Assembly (NCBI GenBank): GCA_013204185.1
Contig: JABMOI010000219.1
Location: 1 to 37,678, forward strand
Direction: 5' to 3'
DNA from: a bacterium
GTDB taxonomy: Bacteria; Bacteroidota; Rhodothermia; Rhodothermales; UBA10348
DNA length: 37,678 bases
The position numbers and the translations under genes are program-made. The notes under the pieces were generated by a model. It did no database searches, was not told the origin of the DNA, and was given only the letters and a program-made list of their open reading frames with translations. Below, piece after piece: positions 21,361 through 36,604 of this stretch. Position 1 is the first letter of the stretch. Each line of letters begins with the position of its first letter.

Positions 21361-22056
21361 ATGGTTCTGGTACTTTTCGACATTGACGGTACGCTCATTA
21401 CATCTGGAGGCACAGGCCGAAGAGCAATTGCCAGGGCTCTTTCTGACTATTGTGGGGTCGAAATTGACATGACGCGCGTTCAGCTGGGTGGCCGGACGGA
21501 TCCTGCCATTGTCCGGGATATTCTCAGGCTGAATGGAATTGAAGAGGAGCGAATTTCCGAACTAATACCCGCATGTTTGGAATTGTATGCTGCCGAACTC
21601 GAGAAAACCATCTTACCGGAGCACGTAACCTTACTGCCTGGCGTTTCTTCTCTACTACGTCAATTGCAAGACCACCCAGCTTACGACCTCGCGTTGATTA
21701 CCGGCAACATGCAGCGGACCGCCTATATGAAACTAGGCGCGGGTAATATTTCGTCCTACTTCCCTTGTGGGGGTTTTGGAAGCGACAGCGAGAACAGAAG
21801 TCTCCTTCCAGAAGTAGCCAGAGACCGAGCATCCTTGCATTACGGAAAGCCTTACAGTCCATCAAAAACAATCGTCATTGGGGATACGGAGCACGACATT
21901 TCGTGTTCAAGGCACTTTGGAGCCTGGGCCATGGCGGTTTCTACGGGAATGAATTCCCATGAAACGTTAGCTTCGTGTAAACCGGACTTATTGCTACCAT
22001 CTCTAGCAGAAGAACAAGCCGTTTGGGGCTTTTTCGAATCAGTACTTAACGCTTAG
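21361..22056 (+). CDS. HAD-superfamily hydrolase, phosphoglycolate phosphatase-like
   Basis: Phosphatase of 231 residues with the HAD motifs in order: DIDGT at 7-11 (nucleophile D7, acid D9), LITGN with the motif II Thr in the middle, and GDTEHDI (motif III/IV acids). The helical cap between motifs I and II resembles Gph/beta-phosphoglucomutase-type enzymes. The substrate could be phosphoglycolate, a sugar phosphate or a nucleotide. It begins 4 nt after the RmlC-like gene and is likely cotranscribed with it, so a sugar-phosphate role is possible but unproven. Its last 18 bp overlap the convergent phosphotyrosine phosphatase gene. Confidence 0.9.
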   Translation: MVLVLFDIDGTLITSGGTGRRAIARALSDYCGVEIDMTRVQLGGRTDPAIVRDILRLNGIEEERISELIPACLELYAAELEKTILPEHVTLLPGVSSLLRQLQDHPAYDLALITGNMQRTAYMKLGAGNISSYFPCGGFGSDSENRSLLPEVARDRASLHYGKPYSPSKTIVIGDTEHDISCSRHFGAWAMAVSTGMNSHETLASCKPDLLLPSLAEEQAVWGFFESVLNA

Positions 22057-22548
22057 CTGGTGCTCCTCGGCGATTCGATGGAATAGCATGCGGGCCGTCC
22101 GTTCCACCATCTGAAACACTTCTTCAAACCCCTCAGGGCCTCCGTAGTACGGATCTGGTACCTGGTAATCTCCGGGTTCGGGATCGAACTCTCTAAAAAG
22201 CCTAACCTTGTGGCCCAAAGTGCCCGTCGCGTCTAACGCAAGAATGTCGTCCAAATTAGACTTATCCATGGCAAAGATATAGTCAAAGGTCTCCAGGTCA
22301 GCCTTCACGAATTGCCGACCCTCAAGGTGCCCGATACTAACTCCGTGTTGCGCTGCCGCCTGGCGCATACGCTTATCTGGAGGATCTCCCACATGCCAAC
22401 CGCTCGTTCCGGCAGAGTCCACAAAAATCTTCTCGGATTGCCCGTGTTCATGCACGATTGAATCGAAGACACCATCTGCAAGTGGGCTTCGACATATGTT
22501 ACCTAAGCACACAAAAAGCACTCGAATGCTACTCGATTCCTTACTCAT
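22039..22548 (-). CDS. Low-molecular-weight protein-tyrosine phosphatase
   Basis: Cytoplasmic phosphatase of 169 residues with the P-loop CLGNICRS at 14-21 (nucleophile C14, R20) and the general acid Asp in VPDPYYGG. Substrates may be tyrosine-phosphorylated proteins such as BY-kinases, or phosphoarginine proteins; neither kinase is in the window. The start codon overlaps the stop of the upstream transporter gene by ATGA, so it belongs to the ParA-acylase-transporter unit. The 3' end overlaps the convergent HAD gene by 18 bp, leaving no room for an intergenic terminator. Confidence 0.95.
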   Translation of the reverse strand: MSKESSSIRVLFVCLGNICRSPLADGVFDSIVHEHGQSEKIFVDSAGTSGWHVGDPPDKRMRQAAAQHGVSIGHLEGRQFVKADLETFDYIFAMDKSNLDDILALDATGTLGHKVRLFREFDPEPGDYQVPDPYYGGPEGFEEVFQMVERTARMLFHRIAEEHQLSVKY

Positions 22549-24032
22549 GCCTTTTCACCTAACGTCTTGTCTACCATCCACTTGTTGGCCATAACAAAAA
22601 CTCCGAGCACGATTCCCCACTGCACCAGAACGGTCATCACACTGTAGGGGTCGAATGGGTTATACCACGTTTCTGGAGCATATTCTGTGGCCGAAAGCCA
22701 CAACCACCAACTGAGCAAAACAACGGCCTGAACCGGGATGACGTATTTGATGAGCATATCCCATCCTCGTCCGGCATTCCAATCCCCTGGAACGCCATCA
22801 ATAGCAGCTTTCCGGAAGGCAGTTACGCCGTGTTTGTTTATGGAAAATGCGATAAACGCTCCAGAAATCATCAAGGCCACTCCCCAAACAAAGTCTTGAT
22901 TTCCGAAGAAGGTCAAATTGATGGCAGATGGAATGCCCATCACAAACGAGATACCACAGACGTACAAGACAGCGCGACGACGTTTAATTCCGAGATCGAC
23001 AAGAATCCTGGTAGTGAGTTCAATCATGGAAATGAGAGAACTAAAGGCCGCGAATGAGAGGCCCAAAAAGAAAAGCATGGCCAAGGGATTACCGAAAGCC
23101 ATCCGTGCGAACAGCTGAGGCATCCAAATGAACGTAAGGCCGGTTGCTGCCGGACCACTCGTTTTCATGACCTCTAAAATTTCAGGCTTGGTCAATTCCG
23201 CTCCCAACACGGCAAAAACAGTCCCGAAAATGGTAATTGCAGCCAGAAGCGACACAATGTTGTTACCGAAACCGGTAACCAAGGCATTTTTGACGACGCC
23301 GTGCTTTGCATGCATATAAGCGCCATACGTCAGGATGAGCCCCCAACCGGCCCCTGTATCCCAAGCGTTTTGAGTTAGCGCCTCTAGCCACACCCTAGGG
23401 GACGCTAGCGTGCTCCAGTCCGGGGTGAACAAGAAGGCGATGCCGGCCCCCGCTCCATCGAGCGTGACAGCCCTGACCAGTGAAATCAGCACAATAGTGA
23501 ACAGGGCCGGAATGAGGATCTTGTTTGCTCGTTCAATGGACTGAACGCCCTTCCAAACAACGAGCGCCCCGATTGTCATGGCAATTCCATGAAACACAAT
23601 GGGCAACCCGCTTCCTTGGAAGCTTTCCCAAATCGCCGACGACGATTCAGCGCTGATTGGAAGTGGATTCACCACCATTTGGGAGAAATAATACAAACAC
23701 CAACCAGCTACCACCGAGTAGTAAAACATGATGGCGGTGGCCACAAACGCAATAAATGCTCCCATCCAACCATACTTTGCCCCTGCTACCTTAGCAATGG
23801 ATCCAACTACGCCTAGTCGACCCTTTTTGCCCAAAGCATACTCGGCTATGATGAGTGGAATAGACCAAACCAGAAGAAAGATGAACCATGCCAGCAAAAA
23901 CGCCCCGGCCCCTGAATCTCCAGCGTTGGTAGCGGCTATTCGCGGAAAGCGCCAAATATTACCCGTCCCCACTGCAATACCAAGGACGCTAAGAATGAGT
24001 CCAAGTCGGCTGGAAAAACGTTGTTCTTTCAT
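22545..24032 (-). CDS. SNF-family sodium-dependent transporter
   Basis: Neurotransmitter:sodium symporter family (LeuT fold), 495 residues with about 12 hydrophobic helices. The first helix region has VGTGNIWRFPRIAATNAG, which carries the unwound sodium/substrate segment of the family. YYSVVAGWCLYYF follows in helix 3. Substrates of bacterial members are mostly amino acids, but this one is not identifiable from sequence. It lies 42 bp after the acylase gene and overlaps the phosphatase gene by 4 nt. Uptake of an amino acid released by the acylase is an attractive inference from the order. Confidence 0.93.
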   Translation of the reverse strand: MKEQRFSSRLGLILSVLGIAVGTGNIWRFPRIAATNAGDSGAGAFLLAWFIFLLVWSIPLIIAEYALGKKGRLGVVGSIAKVAGAKYGWMGAFIAFVATAIMFYYSVVAGWCLYYFSQMVVNPLPISAESSSAIWESFQGSGLPIVFHGIAMTIGALVVWKGVQSIERANKILIPALFTIVLISLVRAVTLDGAGAGIAFLFTPDWSTLASPRVWLEALTQNAWDTGAGWGLILTYGAYMHAKHGVVKNALVTGFGNNIVSLLAAITIFGTVFAVLGAELTKPEILEVMKTSGPAATGLTFIWMPQLFARMAFGNPLAMLFFLGLSFAAFSSLISMIELTTRILVDLGIKRRRAVLYVCGISFVMGIPSAINLTFFGNQDFVWGVALMISGAFIAFSINKHGVTAFRKAAIDGVPGDWNAGRGWDMLIKYVIPVQAVVLLSWWLWLSATEYAPETWYNPFDPYSVMTVLVQWGIVLGVFVMANKWMVDKTLGEKA

Positions 24033-29546: not shown

Positions 29547-30314
29547 ATGTCTTCTGCTCCTTCGCCAGACCACGCTTCACTTAGCATCTTGTTACTCCAA
29601 GCCCGAAACGGCCAGGATATGGAACTCCAAGAACAAGCCTGTTTTTTGGAACGCTGTCAATTGGAGCGGAGTCAGTTGCATTCACTAAACCTGGCTCGAA
29701 CGGACAGTTTACCGGACATCACCGATCTTTTTAAAGGATACGATGCGTTTTTTATTGGAGGAGCAGGCGAATATTCAGCCGTAGAGAATTATGATTGGAT
29801 GCCGTTTGCACTCGAAACCGTTCAAGTTGCCCACGACATAAATTTGCCAACCTTTGGAAGCTGTTGGGGGCATCAGCTCATTGCTAGAGCGCTCGGCGGA
29901 GAAGTGATACACGATGCAGATCGAGCTGAGATGGGCTGCCACCATGTCGAGCTAACCGATGCAGGTCAACAAGATGAACTCTTTAAAGACTTCCCTGCTT
30001 CTTTTATGGCAAACATGGGGCATCACGATCGAGTAAGCATCTTGCCTGAAAATGGAATTGAGTTGGCATTCAACCAAACTCAACCGAATGAAGCATTTAG
30101 AATACGTGATAAGCCCATTTTCGGTACTCAGTTTCACAGCGAACTAAATGCACATAGAGAACGAGAGCGGCTCATCCGCTACCGTGCATTTTACGCTGAA
30201 CAGCTCCACACCGAAGAGCTTTTTCAGCAAATAATGCACGGATTGCAAGAAACCACCGATGTGGATCACCTCTTGTCAAACTTCATTAAGAAATTTGTAG
30301 CTCCTCGGCATTAA
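29547..30314 (+). CDS. Class I glutamine amidotransferase-like protein
   Basis: Stand-alone GATase1 protein of 255 residues, related to the GMP-synthase amidotransferase domain. The catalytic triad is complete: C106 in GSCWGHQ, and H197 and E199 in GTQFHSEL. Homologues of this stand-alone type include putrescine-degradation gamma-glutamyl hydrolase (PuuD-like) proteins and unassigned GATases. The substrate is unknown, and no synthase domain or gene adjoins it. It is the third gene after lnt and maf, 45 bp downstream of maf. Its stop codon overlaps the convergent nitroreductase gene by 4 nt. Confidence 0.9.
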   Translation: MSSAPSPDHASLSILLLQARNGQDMELQEQACFLERCQLERSQLHSLNLARTDSLPDITDLFKGYDAFFIGGAGEYSAVENYDWMPFALETVQVAHDINLPTFGSCWGHQLIARALGGEVIHDADRAEMGCHHVELTDAGQQDELFKDFPASFMANMGHHDRVSILPENGIELAFNQTQPNEAFRIRDKPIFGTQFHSELNAHRERERLIRYRAFYAEQLHTEELFQQIMHGLQETTDVDHLLSNFIKKFVAPRH

Positions 30315-31339
30315 CGAGAAAAGCCTGGGTGTAACATCACATCTACAAGTGCCCTTCTTGGGGTCAAAGGTGCGCGTTCGGCAAAACCCAAGCGTAACAA
30401 AACTTGTGCTGTCCAGTCCGTTTTTAGTATGGCTTCGATTCTGAGCCGAATCTCTTGGATCTGAAGAGGATGAATAATAATCGCTGCGTTTAAACCGCGT
30501 TTCCCAGCTTCAATCAAAATAATTGACATTTCAAACCCGGACCGAAGCCAATTTAGCGGCCTATTTGATGGTGAAACAACAACGGCAACTCTTGAGATAC
30601 TGCCCATTTTGTTTTCCAGCAAGTTTCCTGGAGACCATATTTCTTGAATGGATGCAGTTCTGTTTGCCAGTTCTGGTATTCCATCCCTTGATCTGTTCCG
30701 CAATGGATGTGTCCAGGAAGCGTTTTCTCTCACGTAGTGTTTGTCGGTAAGCCGCTCAGTCTCGGCGTCTCCTATGGCTCGAAGCACATCCACTTCGTCC
30801 TGAACTGAGTCGATAAGCCTGACGCTTGCTTCACCAGAGACTGTACGTTCCTCAATAAACTGCATATCCGATGGCCTCAACAATCGATCTTGAAATCCAT
30901 TCCGAACCGTTTTCCTAGATCGAATGGCATTTAGAGTACCCATCCAGTCAGTTTCGAGAGCAATTTCCCCGACTACTGCAATTCTAGCAACCAAGTCAGG
31001 TTCTGAAGGATCGGGCAGAAACGAGAGATTGTGAATCAATCCAACCGCCTCCAATGCCGTTGATAGGGTCCCACTTGCAGCCCCACAACTAATCAAAAGG
31101 CCCCGATCTTCAGGGTCAATAACTGGTAAAGCTCTACTTCTGTCAGCCAATATATCTACCGAGTCACCATTGACTCGAAAAAGCCAGGGCTGTGTATTGT
31201 GAGTAGAAGGTGCTAAAACTGCATAGTTTATCAAGTACTTCAGGCGTTCACTGATTGGCGCAGCTCTGTCATAATCCTGAGGACGGACGTCCCTAGGGCT
31301 TTGAGAAGTAGCCAAAATACCGGCTGGACGTTGGTTCAT
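30311..31339 (-). CDS. Acg-like nitroreductase-family protein
   Basis: Flavin-fold protein of 342 residues similar to the Acg (Rv2032-like) branch of the nitroreductase superfamily. LAPSTHNTQPWLFRV near 37-51 is the FMN phosphate-contact signature, and RSRALPVIDPEDRGLLISCGAA follows as in that branch. Acg-type proteins can sequester FMN rather than act as reductases, so enzymatic activity is open. It is transcribed alone. Its 3' end overlaps the convergent amidotransferase gene by 4 nt, and its 5' side faces the tonB terminator at 31472-31504. In some species Acg genes respond to hypoxia, and the FixL-like kinase a few kilobases away makes that worth testing. Confidence 0.88.
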   Translation of the reverse strand: MNQRPAGILATSQSPRDVRPQDYDRAAPISERLKYLINYAVLAPSTHNTQPWLFRVNGDSVDILADRSRALPVIDPEDRGLLISCGAASGTLSTALEAVGLIHNLSFLPDPSEPDLVARIAVVGEIALETDWMGTLNAIRSRKTVRNGFQDRLLRPSDMQFIEERTVSGEASVRLIDSVQDEVDVLRAIGDAETERLTDKHYVRENASWTHPLRNRSRDGIPELANRTASIQEIWSPGNLLENKMGSISRVAVVVSPSNRPLNWLRSGFEMSIILIEAGKRGLNAAIIIHPLQIQEIRLRIEAILKTDWTAQVLLRLGFAERAPLTPRRALVDVMLHPGFSR

Positions 31340-31584: not shown

Positions 31585-32334
31585 TTATTTGTTAGCGTCG
31601 CGAAGTCTAAAGCGGATCGGTATGGCGAGTCGTACCTGAACGGGCTTTCCTCTTTGTTTTCCAGGATTAAAACGTAATTGCATCACGGCTTTAATGGCAG
31701 CTTCGTCAAGAACCTGACCACCTGAGCGAACCGCTTCTGGAAGCGTTGGAACTCCTTGCTGGTTGACTACCACCTGAATAACAACAAGCCCTTCGATGCC
31801 CGCTTGACGAGCTATTTCAGGATATTCCAGGTACTCGTACACCTTTTGAGAGCCGCCAATGATCTCGGGCATTTGCTCCACTACGACGAATATCTCGATG
31901 TCGTCCTCTACTTCGTCCGATTTAGCAGGAGTTGGCGGCGGCGGAGGTATGTCGGAAACATCGGCTTCAAGATCTAGTGTGGCGTCCAAATCTAAATCGA
32001 CGTCATCAAAGACAATGTCGTCGGGGACTTCGACTGGAACAGGAGGTCTTGGAGGTGGCGGTGGTTTCTGCTCTTGCAATGTTTGTTCTATCTGTTCCAT
32101 CTGAACGACTTCTTGTGAGAACAAATCAAATTCGTCCCCTGAGTCATTTACCTGCATGTTCATTCTGAACAGCAAAGACAGAGAACCAAGTGAAAGCACT
32201 AAACCCGCCAGAATGGTCATCCGGTAGTGTTTTTTAACATCTTTGCCCGGACCTTTTTTTGGACGCCGAGGATTGTCGATCAAGCGCTGGAGTAAGTCGG
32301 AAGAAGGAGGTTGAGAAGAATTGCTGGTCTTCAT
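31585..32334 (-). CDS. tonB: Energy transducer TonB
   Basis: Passes inner-membrane proton-motive force to outer-membrane receptors. The 249 residues have a basic cytoplasmic N terminus, one transmembrane helix (about 38-56), and an acidic, proline-rich periplasmic linker with KPPPPPRPPVPVEVP and IPPPPPTPAK. The C-terminal TonB domain (about 165-246) contains YPEIARQAGIEGLVVIQVVV and LRFNPGKQRGKPVQVRLAIP. The N-terminal cytoplasmic tail of about 37 residues is longer than usual. No exbB/exbD is adjacent, so the motor must come from elsewhere. A TATACT box and an inverted repeat lie upstream at 32377-32405, and a strong terminator follows, so it is monocistronic. Confidence 0.95.
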   Translation of the reverse strand: MKTSNSSQPPSSDLLQRLIDNPRRPKKGPGKDVKKHYRMTILAGLVLSLGSLSLLFRMNMQVNDSGDEFDLFSQEVVQMEQIEQTLQEQKPPPPPRPPVPVEVPDDIVFDDVDLDLDATLDLEADVSDIPPPPPTPAKSDEVEDDIEIFVVVEQMPEIIGGSQKVYEYLEYPEIARQAGIEGLVVIQVVVNQQGVPTLPEAVRSGGQVLDEAAIKAVMQLRFNPGKQRGKPVQVRLAIPIRFRLRDANK

Positions 32335-32472: not shown

Positions 32473-32493
32473 TTGTAGGATCTGTCCCTACAA
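32473..32493. other. Hairpin in the space after the response regulator gene
   Basis: TTGTAGG (32473-32479) and CCTACAA (32487-32493) form a perfect 7-bp stem with a 7-nt loop, 10 nt past the regulator stop. No T-tract follows on the minus strand, so it may be a weak terminator or an RNA 3' end stabiliser. Confidence 0.35.
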
Positions 32494-32502
32494 TTTCGAC
32501 TT

Positions 32503-33159
32503 TTAGTTTGCTTTCTCTCCTTCCACCCACTGTACTGCATGTTGCATAAGCTCAGCGGCACTATTCAAGTTCAACTTGGTCTTGATTCGGGCTCGATATG
32601 ACTCCACGGTTTTAACTGAAAGGTGAAGTCGCTCCGCAATATCTCGCGTTCCACATCCTCTACCGGTGAGTTCGAAGACCTCCAATTCCCGATCACTGAG
32701 CACTTCCAGAGGGGACTGCGCAAGCATTTCGTGTCCTGATGCCATTCCCAGCAATAACCGCTCATTGATCTCATCCGAAACATAAATACCGCCATTCATG
32801 ACCCGGCGTACTGCCTTTACCATGACATCGGGGGCCTCAAGCTTCATCACGTAGCCCTTTGCTCCTGCCCGGATTGCCCGTTCAGCATACAACGCTTCAT
32901 CGTGACGGCTTACAACCAGAGTCTTCATCGCCGGACGAATCGCATGCACTTGCTTGATTAATTCGAGACCGCTCATACCTGGAAGAGAGATATCAACGAT
33001 CACTAAATCTGGGTTTTGCGACTCAACGACGCCCAAGGCATCTTCCGCATTCGATGCCTGTCCGCAGACAGTAATATCTGATTCCGCTTCAAGGGACAAT
33101 ACGAGTCCTTTTCGCATCAAAGGGTGATCGTCTACTACTACTATTCTGATCATGGCCAT
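32503..33159 (-). CDS. NarL/FixJ-type response regulator
   Basis: Transcription factor of 218 residues. The receiver domain (about 3-120) has the acidic pocket VVDDHP at 8-13, phospho-acceptor D56 in VIVDISLPG and Lys K106 in GYVMKLEA. The LuxR-type helix-turn-helix (about 152-205) has LSDRELEVFELTGRG and SVKTVESYRARIKTKL. It begins 10 nt after the upstream histidine kinase gene on the same strand, so the two are a cognate pair. An ATG at residue 3 is an alternative start. Target genes are not visible; nothing in its own upstream region stands out. Confidence 0.96.
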   Translation of the reverse strand: MAMIRIVVVDDHPLMRKGLVLSLEAESDITVCGQASNAEDALGVVESQNPDLVIVDISLPGMSGLELIKQVHAIRPAMKTLVVSRHDEALYAERAIRAGAKGYVMKLEAPDVMVKAVRRVMNGGIYVSDEINERLLLGMASGHEMLAQSPLEVLSDRELEVFELTGRGCGTRDIAERLHLSVKTVESYRARIKTKLNLNSAAELMQHAVQWVEGEKAN

Positions 33160-33169
33160 TTGGACAAAT

Positions 33170-34501
33170 TCAAATTGATGTGTGGGGCGAAGATAAGGTA
33201 CATCTTATGAGAGTTCCTCTCCCCGCTTCTGCTTCAATCTCGAGGCGGGCGTTAATAATACGCGCCCTATAACCCATAATATCGACACCCATGCCTCGAT
33301 CTTCTTTCAAAACTTCGGGGAATCCCACTCCGTTGTCTTCGATGGTGAGAACTGCGCTATCCGGTGATGTATCTAATGTAACCGTAATTTGCTCAGCTTT
33401 TCCATGTTTAACCGCATTGCTAACGGCTTCTTGAGCAATTCGATACAAATTAGATGCCTCGCTACTATCACTAATTCGAACCTTTCCCTTCTCGACGTAA
33501 GTACAGCGAACGGAGAAGTATTTTTCCGCGTTCGAACAAAGCGTCCGCAAGGCAGCAGACATGCCATCGCCTTCGAGTTCAACTTGAACCAACCCCCTGG
33601 CAATATTGCGAGTCATTCGATCTGCTTCACGGACCAAATCAGTGATTTCATGCATTTCCTCAGCGAATTCGGACTTTTCATTCTCTAGCCGATTCGCCAT
33701 ATTACGGCCAATCAGACTAATTCCGGTTAACATTTGGCCGAGCCCATCATGCAAATCTTGTCCAACTCTTCTGCGTTCTTGCTCTGAAATCCGCAGAATC
33801 TCGTGCTCAAGTTTGCGTCGTTCGCTCACGTCTCGAATAATCCCGACAAATAATTTTTTCCCATCCGACTCAAACTCGCTGACGGCCAAATCCATCGGAA
33901 ATATCTCTCCCGACTTCCTCAAACCACTTACTTCCCTGCCAATTCCGATAATCTTTTTTTTGCCAGTTGTCAGATAATTGTCAATGTATCGGTCGTGATT
34001 TCTAGAGTAGGATTCTGGCATCAAAAAATTGACGTTTTTGCCGATCACCTCAGACGTCGAATATTGAAATATTTTTTCTGCCGCTTTGTTATAAAGCTGT
34101 ATAAAGCCACGGGTGTTGATAATGATGATGCCTTCAACCGTGTTTTCAAAAACAGCTGCGAACTGTCTCTTTCGAGACTCTCTGATAATAAGGCGCCTTA
34201 AGATGAACGGAATCCGGGAAGACAATTCAACGGCGTCAGTAAAAAGGTCATCGACGGAAGACTCTACCCTTCCCCAGATAAACGAATTATCCAAAAGTGA
34301 CCGATGTGCAATACGAACGCAGTCTAAACTATTCGATAAAAGGAATTCGATATCGTGTAATTCGACCTCATCGGTACTGACCAAAATAACCATGGACACA
34401 CCCGTCACGGGGTCCATTCCTGTAAATACCTCATGTTCGAGGGATAGGACTTCGGCTACTTCAGGCGCAATATTTAGCTTGTCGAGAACGAGAACTTTCA
34501 T
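33170..34501 (-). CDS. PAS-HisKA_3 sensor kinase with FixL-like heme-PAS signature
   Basis: Soluble sensor kinase of 443 residues. Residues 1-105 look like a receiver-type fold without a phospho-acceptor Asp. The PAS domain (about 113-228) contains GKNVNFLMPESYS, then H169 in NHDRYI and R189 in IIGIGREV. As I recall the Bradyrhizobium FixL sequence, its heme-ligating His200 and distal Arg220 lie in the same motifs with the same 20-residue spacing. The HisKA_3 region has H251 in QDLHDGLGQ, and the ATPase domain has NLYRIAQEAVSNAVKHG, EDNGVGFP and GMGVDIMGYRA. It sits 12 nt after sixA and 10 nt before its regulator gene. Oxygen or NO sensing is a reasonable inference. The PAS motif also occurs in proteins not shown to bind heme. 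Confidence 0.93.
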   Translation of the reverse strand: MKVLVLDKLNIAPEVAEVLSLEHEVFTGMDPVTGVSMVILVSTDEVELHDIEFLLSNSLDCVRIAHRSLLDNSFIWGRVESSVDDLFTDAVELSSRIPFILRRLIIRESRKRQFAAVFENTVEGIIIINTRGFIQLYNKAAEKIFQYSTSEVIGKNVNFLMPESYSRNHDRYIDNYLTTGKKKIIGIGREVSGLRKSGEIFPMDLAVSEFESDGKKLFVGIIRDVSERRKLEHEILRISEQERRRVGQDLHDGLGQMLTGISLIGRNMANRLENEKSEFAEEMHEITDLVREADRMTRNIARGLVQVELEGDGMSAALRTLCSNAEKYFSVRCTYVEKGKVRISDSSEASNLYRIAQEAVSNAVKHGKAEQITVTLDTSPDSAVLTIEDNGVGFPEVLKEDRGMGVDIMGYRARIINARLEIEAEAGRGTLIRCTLSSPHTSI

Positions 34502-34513
34502 TTCAGCAAATGA

Positions 34514-35008
34514 TCAATTTTCAAGTTGTCTTGGAGTCACGTAGAGTTTCATTGACGCCTGAGCAGCTTTCAACTCTCTCCAGCTTGAAATGGGGATGCT
34601 GAACATCATAAACGTCCCAGTTGGCACATCGACCTGCGAACCGCCCAAAAGCCAGCTAGCAAAATCCCCTGTTGTGGGTTGGTGTCCAACGACCAAGGCT
34701 GATTCAACCTTGTCGTCCAGATGGGATAGCTGCTTGATGATGTCGGCGCGCGAACATAAGTACAAATCCGTGAGGTAGGTAACGCTAGCATTCCAACCAG
34801 CATGTTTCATCAGAAGCGAGAGCGTCTCTTTGGTTCGCTTGGCAGTTGAAGATAGAATGATCTCCGGCTGGACAATCTCTTGTTTCAAAAACGAGCCCAT
34901 GCTTTTTGCGGCCCGCTTCCCCCGTTCGTTCAACGGCCTTTCGTGGTCAGCCCCATAGCTGGCGTCCCAATCAGATTTCGCATGGCGAAGTAGACACAAA
35001 GTTTTCAT
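34514..35008 (-). CDS. sixA: SixA-type phosphohistidine phosphatase
   Basis: Histidine-phosphatase superfamily protein of 164 residues. The RHG-type motif reads LLRHAKSDWD with catalytic H9, then ERPLNERGKRAA, SSTAKRTKETL and the second His in VVGHQPT. Family members remove phosphate from phosphohistidine in HPt domains or in the nitrogen-related phosphotransferase system. It is placed 12 nt before the FixL-like kinase gene on the same strand, so the product could damp signalling of that kinase. It lies 44 bp after folB. Substrate identity is not shown by sequence. Confidence 0.92.
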   Translation of the reverse strand: MKTLCLLRHAKSDWDASYGADHERPLNERGKRAAKSMGSFLKQEIVQPEIILSSTAKRTKETLSLLMKHAGWNASVTYLTDLYLCSRADIIKQLSHLDDKVESALVVGHQPTTGDFASWLLGGSQVDVPTGTFMMFSIPISSWRELKAAQASMKLYVTPRQLEN

Positions 35009-35052: not shown

Positions 35053-35418
35053 CTAACGAATTGCCTTACACTGCGCTTCTGCGCAATCGCACGGGCCGCC
35101 AACGGGTGGGTTCGCCTTCCTTACGACAACATCTACAGAGCAAATAATCGATTCCCTGTCTAAAATCTGGTGGGCAATAACGTAGGCCAGGCGCTCTATT
35201 AGAAAAAAATTATTTCCCGTGATAACCTGCTTAATATCGGCATAAACTCGTTCATAATCGACCGTTTTAGAGAGGTCGTCGGCTTTTGCTGCAGCTTCGA
35301 AGTCTAGCTCCATCGCTACATCGACTTCATATCGCCCCCCAATGCGGTGTTCTTCTTGCATGACTCCGTGATGTGCGTAAAACACGGCATTTTGCAGACG
35401 TACAATTCCTAGAGACAT
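35053..35418 (-). CDS. folB: Dihydroneopterin aldolase
   Basis: Folate-pathway enzyme that splits dihydroneopterin to 6-hydroxymethyl-dihydropterin and glycolaldehyde. The 121-residue length is typical. Motifs are FYAHHGVMQEEHRIGG (with the Glu of the substrate pocket at 22/23), DLSKTVDYERVY, FLIERLAYVIA and VRKANPPVGG, where K101 is the catalytic Lys. The C terminus has an unusual GPCDCAEAQC stretch with three Cys. No other folate genes are adjacent. It is the first gene of a same-strand series folB-sixA-kinase-regulator, with a 44-bp gap before sixA, so cotranscription is possible but not certain. A set of short repeats lies just upstream at 35438-35505. Confidence 0.94.
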   Translation of the reverse strand: MSLGIVRLQNAVFYAHHGVMQEEHRIGGRYEVDVAMELDFEAAAKADDLSKTVDYERVYADIKQVITGNNFFLIERLAYVIAHQILDRESIICSVDVVVRKANPPVGGPCDCAEAQCKAIR

Positions 35419-35557: not shown

Positions 35558-36604
35558 TTAATAAAGACCTAGATTGGCAACCACTTTAGCTTCCTCTTCA
35601 GAAGCCGTTCCGCCCTTAACGTCCCGTATCAAACTCGCTAAATATAGCGTACCGTACAGACCCAAAATATGATCGCTTCTTCGTGCATGCTCTGATAAGC
35701 CCGAGGCAAGGGACGCATTTTTTAAGTATTCCGGCACAAAGTAGGCTCTCTCTCCAGTTGGCCCAGGCCTGGCCGCTGACGGAAAGCTACGCTCTGGTTC
35801 AAAAAGCCTATCGCCAAAATGACAGCCAACACATTGAGTTGGTACCCGCAATGGATCTGGCTTTTTTTCAATGAATTGAGATAACTTTCCTTCCGATCCG
35901 TAGGCAAAATAATCCCAATATCCATCTTCCCTCTTCACCATCGCAGTCACTTCGCGCACTGACTCGCCACCTAGGTGCTCTCCTACAAATACGGTGCCGA
36001 TTGGGTAAATAATGGGGTCTGACAAGGTAGACAACCCTTTCAGAGCAGCAAACAGGGCCGTTTTGGGCACGGACAACCTGCGTCTGAAATGCGTCATTTG
36101 TCCTACCAACTCGTGGACAAACCACGATTCCGAGTCCCAATCTCCATATCGGATTTTCAAATCAGCTACGGACTTTGGCGCATTTCTCACCGCGTAGTAA
36201 GAACTTGAAACTGCCGGCTCGAATTCCTCCCACGTTAGCTTTTCATCGTCACCGGCTACTTCAAACAGGGTTTCCATTGAAGGAGGTAAGTCGAGTCCCT
36301 CCTTTGGTCGATGAAGCCACCAGGCTGAATCAACGTTTGATAACACTGAATCCAATTGCCAGCCATCAGGAAGCATGCCCCCGATATAAAATGCCAAAAG
36401 CATTTCATCATCCGATTTGTCTAACTCGATGAGGATGGATCCTGGCGCATTTGCTACTGACTGACCGGCTTCGTTGGTCTTGTTTTCTACCGCAGACGAA
36501 TCGGAGTTGCCGCCACCACAGCCCATTCCTGTGAATACGAACAGGAATACTGAGAGGTGATAAATTGGTCGTAGATGCAAGCTTGGAAACGGAGGTAATC
36601 TCAT
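35558..36604 (-). CDS. Putative lipoprotein with cytochrome-P460-like heme domain
   Basis: Exported protein of 348 residues. The hydrophobic segment at about 13-26 ends in GMGC, so C29 may be a lipidated cysteine, though the lipobox is poor (Gly at -3). A low-complexity Ser/Asn/Glu linker follows. The C-terminal part has YPIGTVFVGEHLGG, TAMVKREDGYWDYF and then QCVGCHFGD with the heme-binding C258, C261 and H262. This order resembles cytochrome P460/c'-beta proteins (hydrophobic-PxGT strand, MVK strand, CxxCH near the end). One heme c is expected. The crosslinking Lys typical of P460 cannot be placed with certainty. It is transcribed alone, divergent from the coiled-coil gene. Function could be NO or hydroxylamine chemistry or electron transfer. 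Confidence 0.75.
   Translation of the reverse strand: MRLPPFPSLHLRPIYHLSVFLFVFTGMGCGGGNSDSSAVENKTNEAGQSVANAPGSILIELDKSDDEMLLAFYIGGMLPDGWQLDSVLSNVDSAWWLHRPKEGLDLPPSMETLFEVAGDDEKLTWEEFEPAVSSSYYAVRNAPKSVADLKIRYGDWDSESWFVHELVGQMTHFRRRLSVPKTALFAALKGLSTLSDPIIYPIGTVFVGEHLGGESVREVTAMVKREDGYWDYFAYGSEGKLSQFIEKKPDPLRVPTQCVGCHFGDRLFEPERSFPSAARPGPTGERAYFVPEYLKNASLASGLSEHARRSDHILGLYGTLYLASLIRDVKGGTASEEEAKVVANLGLY

Follow-up and report, generated by a model that had tools for sequence, protein, structure and literature searches.

The kinase gene at this locus encodes a FixL-like PAS domain and lies between the gene of a NarL-type response regulator and that of a SixA-like phosphatase. The question it raises is what such a system would sense, which genes it would control, and which of the neighbours belong to it. 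An earlier note on the window (the whole stretch of DNA that was analysed, 37,678 nucleotides) had joined all three products in one sensor-regulator-phosphatase unit with SixA as the off switch. Comparison across the Rhodothermales points instead to a heme-PAS oxygen-sensing two-component system that probably controls a micro-oxic regulon, a reading to which a probability of about 0.78 is given, and SixA is left outside it. The kinase gene and its parts are the following.

33170..34501, minus strand: sensor histidine kinase, 443 aa, with pseudo-receiver, FixL-type PAS, HisKA_3 and HATPase_c
34187..34501, minus strand: pseudo-receiver, residues 1-105, a degenerate, fast-evolving receiver domain
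33818..34165, minus strand: predicted FixL-type heme-PAS, residues 113-228, from Pfam, NCBIfam, the PDB and the AlphaFold2 (AF2) model
33995..33997, minus strand: H169 codon, predicted proximal heme ligand (BjFixL H200, SmFixL H194), by alignment
33935..33937, minus strand: R189 codon, predicted distal arginine (BjFixL R220), by alignment
33584..33778, minus strand: HisKA_3 dimerisation/phosphoacceptor domain, residues 242-306, with H251 and the DxxxQ phosphatase motif
33191..33454, minus strand: HATPase_c, residues 350-437, by domain match (VraS CA domain, Z 19.8)

Residues 113-228 match the Pfam PAS model (E 5e-16), the best NCBIfam model over residues 109-232 is FixL (126 bits, E 1.6e-36; DosP 62.7 bits), and the top seven phmmer matches in the PDB are FixL heme domains (4.2e-28; EcDosP 1.5e-14). 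In the AF2 model the domain superposes on BjFixL with a Z of 19.1 and an rmsd of 1.5 A over 118 residues at 42% identity, EcDOS scoring lower (Z 15.8). It had been proposed that H169 and R189, 20 residues apart, occupy the positions of the FixL His and Arg, and alignment of residues 113-228 with FixL PAS domains bears this out: it is free of gaps, H169 falls on the FixL His (BjFixL H200) and R189 on BjFixL R220, and both residues, as well as H251 of the kinase core, are unvarying in 38/38 aligned Rhodothermales homologues. The distal residues named for SmFixL, I209, I210, L230 and V232 (PMC10765370), correspond to I184, I185, L205 and V207, all identical. The proximal, propionate-contacting Arg of FixL (Bj R206/Sm R200) is N175 here, at a variable position that is R in 5/38 homologues. 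Substitutions of SmFixL R200 leave the heme optical spectra similar (PMC10765370); with this Arg replaced by N175, affinity or switching could differ from FixL. The domain is best read as a FixL-type heme-PAS and a predicted oxygen sensor, which would bind heme and O2.

The rest of the kinase departs from FixL. Residues 1-105 have no Pfam match above cut-off, and their sequence shows neither the phospho-acceptor nor the lysine motif of receivers; in the AF2 model (pLDDT 89 for this segment, mean 83.5 for the whole kinase), their top structural matches are receiver domains (Z 11.8, rmsd 2.8, 111 residues). FixL is not known to have a pseudo-receiver. The kinase core of the model superposes on VraS and DesK (DesK-type fold), and HisKA_3 (PF07730) matches at 41.2 bits against a cut-off of 24. 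Within H251-D252-x-x-x-Q256, all three named residues are invariant among the aligned homologues, and in HisKA_3 kinases DxxxQ is the kinase's own phosphatase motif (PMC3510030, PMC11502775). Judging from sequence and model, the kinase is a FixL-like sensor joined to a NarX/DesK-type (HisKA_3) transmitter, not to that of FixL. Identity of the whole protein with FixL was considered and rejected, on the HisKA_3 kinase core and on a score of 126 bits against the 850-bit full-length cut-off of sens_FixL_Rhizob, which is far from reached because the other domains differ. The kinase is present in 73/114 genomes of Rhodothermales (E <= 1e-60), and in comparison with named genomes it has few distant relatives, the nearest being Rhodothermales/Bacteroidota MAGs. 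Two kinase genes, those of G012 and G073 (L043:5189-6544 and L219:4818-6589), are interrupted by stop codons or a change of frame beside an intact regulator gene, through sequencing error or decay, which are indistinguishable here.

Ten nucleotides separate the kinase gene from that of its presumed partner.

32503..33159, minus strand: NarL/DosR-type response regulator (RR1), REC + GerE HTH, 218 aa, cognate partner

The pairing of the kinase with a NarL/FixJ-type regulator, also claimed earlier, holds, since this adjoining gene encodes Response_reg and GerE HTH domains. By NCBIfam scores RR1 is closer to GacA (153.9 bits), MctR (152.7 bits) and NarL (117.5 bits) than to FixJ (76.8 bits). The regulator is present in 74 genomes of the order (E <= 1e-65), the match in G010 being a paralogue, RR2. 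Across the order, RR1 is 61-93% identical, with a nearly invariant recognition helix, KT[VI]ESYRARIK.

Candidate targets of the pair lie downstream of it in the window, and each has a predicted operator.

31585..32334, minus strand: TonB-like protein gene, predicted regulon member, with an operator upstream in most family members
30311..31339, minus strand: Acg/Rv3131-family FMN nitroreductase gene, predicted regulon member (NF047509 224.7 bits, cut-off 199)
32474..32492, no strand assigned: predicted operator TGTAGGATCTGTCCCTACA upstream of tonB, 13.2 bits
31439..31457, no strand assigned: predicted operator TGTAGGGAATAACCTTACC upstream of the Acg-family gene, 16.2 bits

Most genomes of the window's family have the kinase, regulator, tonB and acg genes in this same order. 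Outside this family, a Usp gene lies <=3.5 kb from the kinase gene in 28/41 loci, where 1.2 would be expected, and any of Usp, Acg and ccoN (the last identified by TIGR00780 above cut-off) is found near it in 34/41. The window's own genome carries a ccoNOP-ccoG-H-I cluster on contig C89, and three genomes that have lost the kinase-regulator pair (G023, G010 and G011) have no intact ccoN, the gene being absent or a remnant. As far as comparison of sequences can tell, what is kept across the order is the kinase-regulator pair with Usp, the Acg-type nitroreductase, TonB and the cbb3 oxidase (ccoN), joined by a palindrome. Elsewhere in the window, the AT skew reaches 0.144 at positions 22001-24000, much higher than in the remainder.

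The palindrome common to the conserved genes is 19 bp long, TGTAGGGGAATCCCCTACA. In a de novo dyad search of 68 upstream regions (Acg/Usp/COX1) from families other than the window's, GTAGG-N7-CCTAC with overlapping extensions was recovered in 8 regions, shuffles giving at most 3-4. This dyad has one perfect match in the window, at 32475-32491, and TGTAGGN7CCTACA at 32474-32492 is the sole perfect copy in the 3.44-Mb genome. The palindrome lies upstream of 34/37 ccoN genes, many with no kinase gene nearby, against a mean of 1.6 for permuted half-sites (these counts come from related genomes and are not independent events); the permuted motifs that come close on ccoN, at 33 and 32 of 37, are near-identical one-swap variants, as expected. 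Before non-cbb3 oxidase controls, it was found in 0/8.

A matrix was trained on the ccoN sites only, and the two best sites that it gave in the window were those at acg and tonB (16.2 and 13.2 bits; the third, 6.6). With this matrix, Acg and TonB genes had a site upstream in 67% of cases each (permuted matrices 5% and 3%), and SixA, FolB, Op796, Pfk and GATase genes in 0%. Of the kinase genes in other families, 19/37 were preceded by one (a mean of 1.5 after permutation), which leaves about half of these promoters without a site. Two palindrome sites precede ccoN of the C89 cluster in the own genome. Sites are lacking at tonB and acg in g5, and G023, G010 and G011 have no operator at their remaining Acg locus. 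Over the whole of the own genome, the first pattern has 67 sites at <=2 mismatches and the second 7 at <=1 mismatch, equal to the 7 of the reversed-pattern control, so that the case for an operator rests on placement, not number. No site at <=2 mismatches lies near the universal stress genes of this genome, so that for this organism Usp is not counted in the regulon. An operator-like site of 20.7 bits is found at L209:613-631 (own genome contig C207) between divergent genes, one of which encodes a small CGCC-motif protein that may be copper-related and has no NCBIfam match; this gene is a possible further regulon member.

The mechanism proposed here is modelled on FixL. With O2 bound to the heme that H169 ligates, and with R189 stabilising it, the kinase would stay off. 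Loss of O2 would lead to autophosphorylation at H251 and transfer of the phosphate to the adjacent NarL-type regulator; once phosphorylated, this would bind the 19-bp palindrome TGTRGGGNAWTNCCCYACA and switch on the micro-oxic regulon. When O2 returns, the DxxxQ motif would let the same kinase dephosphorylate the regulator. The regulon would comprise the ccoNOP-ccoG-H-I cbb3 oxidase cluster, the Acg-type nitroreductase and the TonB-like protein, in other families also Usp, and the genes of the kinase and regulator would in many families belong to it as well. RR1, with or without RR2, would be the protein that occupies the palindrome.

The share of RR2 is the point on which another account fares best. 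RR2 is 61-75% identical to RR1 with nearly the same recognition helix. In much of the window's family its gene and ccoN are divergent neighbours; RR2 lies beside ccoN in at least seven genomes of this family and in one outside it; RR2 genes lie, for example, at L213:6762-7568, L214:2103-2780, L216:5101-5769 and L211:3-521. Given this position beside ccoN and the near-identical helix, the ccoN operators in the window's family may be those of RR2, not of RR1. It is conceivable, if a minority view, that the regulon is the same one and that RR2 is the main binder of the palindrome in this family, RR1 acting only on tonB and acg and RR2 being fed by the present kinase or by another one; no matching kinase gene was seen beside RR2 at the RR2 loci. 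That G010 keeps RR2 after losing the kinase and RR1 would fit this account, but with RR2 alone this genome has a ccoN remnant only and no operator, and other families have a single regulator that adjoins both kinase and ccoN, with operators.

A second account concerns the ligand: the PAS domain would be a FixL look-alike that binds no heme, or would sense NO, CO, redox or no ligand at all. The missing proximal Arg speaks for it, FixL pockets bind CO and NO too, and many PAS domains bind no cofactor. Against it stand the conservation of H169, R189 and the four distal residues given above, and the nature of the operator-bearing genes, which are those of low-oxygen respiration; this account is improbable. 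Still less probable is that the palindrome serves some global regulator unrelated to the system, with the kinase-regulator pair merely one of its targets, as could be suspected from the kinase promoters that have no site. NarL/DosR-type sites have G+C-rich dyad arms. The arms of the palindrome fit this type, not the FNR/FixK type (TTGA-N6-TCAA; PMC13327599), and the sites cluster at the neighbours of the regulator and vanish where the pair is lost.

Finally, the phosphatase from which the three-part unit had been drawn lies on the other side of the kinase gene, next to folB.

34514..35008, minus strand: SixA-like histidine phosphatase gene, 164 aa, a neighbour and not a conserved part of the system
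35053..35418, minus strand: folB (dihydroneopterin aldolase), a neighbour that stays with sixA where the kinase is lost

In the unit as proposed, sensor, regulator and SixA would form one phosphorelay, and SixA would remove the phosphate from H251 as an off switch. Its observational basis is correct: by the ORF coordinates, sixA lies 12 nt ahead of the kinase gene, and in two relatives of the genus it overlaps it by 4 bp, so that co-transcription with the kinase is likely. The product is a clear branch-1 histidine phosphatase, as is SixA of E. coli, and the catalytic R8/H9, R58 and H109 (RHG-type set) are intact and invariant in 18 relatives; it does not reach the NCBIfam SixA equivalog cut-off (65.8 vs 74.5 bits). 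For the species with co-transcription, adjacency is the sole support for the unit. The order sixA-kinase-regulator is largely not conserved. Among the 27 genomes of the window's family that were compared, sixA directly adjoins the kinase gene only in g1, g4, one g2 species (G004) and g8 (G018); a gene of ~796 aa on the opposite strand splits the two in G001-G003, g5 and g6 (G016), and in g9/g10 each is on a contig of its own. In other families, sixA is found <=3.5 kb from the kinase gene in 1/41 loci. Such patchy linkage makes direct adjacency look lineage-specific, between genes already near each other.

Other evidence also separates SixA from the system. Where the kinase and RR1 have been lost or have decayed (G023, G010 and G011), folB-sixA is kept, with the SixA catalytic residues intact. 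The regulon operator was found in 0/26 sixA upstream regions. Between congeners, sixA is only ~40% identical, against ~90% for the regulator. The kinase has its own DxxxQ phosphatase motif, and the targets shown for E. coli SixA are elsewhere, namely NPr/PTS-Ntr and Ndk, its in vivo role on ArcB being unclear (PMC6282199, PMC12934123). SixA as a dedicated off switch is rejected as very improbable, on four grounds: its gene is linked to that of the kinase in only a part of one family, it outlasts the kinase, it has no operator, and the kinase brings its own DxxxQ. From its gene order and sequence, SixA is best regarded as a neighbour, co-transcribed in some species, and not part of the mechanism.

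Two further genes were observed around sixA and folB. The ~796-aa conserved protein (Op796), with a weak GAF match, is encoded on the strand opposite to sixA and the kinase (L044:6601-8991, L045:2829-5219, L046:6858-9254, L051:6592-8988, L052:3109-5478, L109:985-3492 and L110:4464-6956), often with the gene of a small PycTM-like (Pycsar effector-type) membrane protein directly before sixA. In the window, positions 35558-36604 on the minus strand encode a protein of 348 aa whose N-terminus is lipoprotein-like and which has a single CxxCH motif (CVGCH); it is kept beside folB across the family and has no Pfam or NCBIfam match.

With SixA set aside, the preferred reading, an oxygen-sensing pair in control of a micro-oxic regulon, can be compared with known systems. 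FixL-FixJ of Sinorhizobium and Bradyrhizobium agrees with it in the proximal His, the distal Arg and the hydrophobic residues on the distal side, and has a GerE-type regulator as partner and the cbb3 oxidase among its downstream targets, which FixL pathways drive, via FixK in rhizobia (PMC7888657). The present system is unlike it in the HisKA_3/NarX-DesK-type kinase core, the N-terminal pseudo-receiver, N175 in place of the proximal R206, a regulator nearer GacA/MctR/NarL, and an operator predicted directly before ccoN, with no FixK step. In DosS/DosT-DosR of Mycobacterium, the DosS heme sits in a GAF domain and the DosR operator is a G-rich palindrome. A HisKA_3-type kinase that senses oxygen (here by prediction), with a NarL-type regulator, is common to both systems, as is a palindromic operator shared by the regulon genes, different in sequence. 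Acg and Usp are core DosR-regulon genes, and Usp and Acg/Rv3131-type nitroreductase genes lie near the system (PMC11876180); here, the Acg gene is linked in the window's own family, and both kinds are in other families. Differences are the PAS domain, no GAF domain being found in the kinase here, the addition of ccoN and TonB, and the Bacteroidota/Rhodothermota host. NmpRSTU of Myxococcus xanthus is likewise a heme-dependent kinase pathway, and its oxygen-utilisation regulon includes the cbb3 oxidase and universal stress proteins (PMC11841059), but it has a protoglobin sensor, a multi-step relay and an NtrC-type regulator.

A literature search for a counterpart system in Rhodothermales or Salinibacter, in which subscription papers were outside the scope, found none. 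On balance, the system seems to be a previously undescribed oxygen regulon, order-wide in Rhodothermales, in which a heme-PAS sensor, a HisKA_3 kinase, a NarL-type regulator and one palindrome would lead to cbb3/Acg/Usp/TonB without FixK or FNR. It would be a hybrid that arose by convergence, with the sensor and the oxidase target of FixLJ and with the kinase type and the dormancy genes of DosSR. These results correct the earlier view of the adjacent phosphatase as a component of the relay. They also suggest that Usp, Acg and a high-affinity oxidase are a recurrent low-oxygen module that has come under several kinds of heme sensor: a GAF domain in mycobacteria, a protoglobin in Myxococcus and a FixL-type PAS here. 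Oxygen control has been little described in Rhodothermales, and a candidate sensor, regulator, operator and targets are now named that are testable in cultivable relatives.
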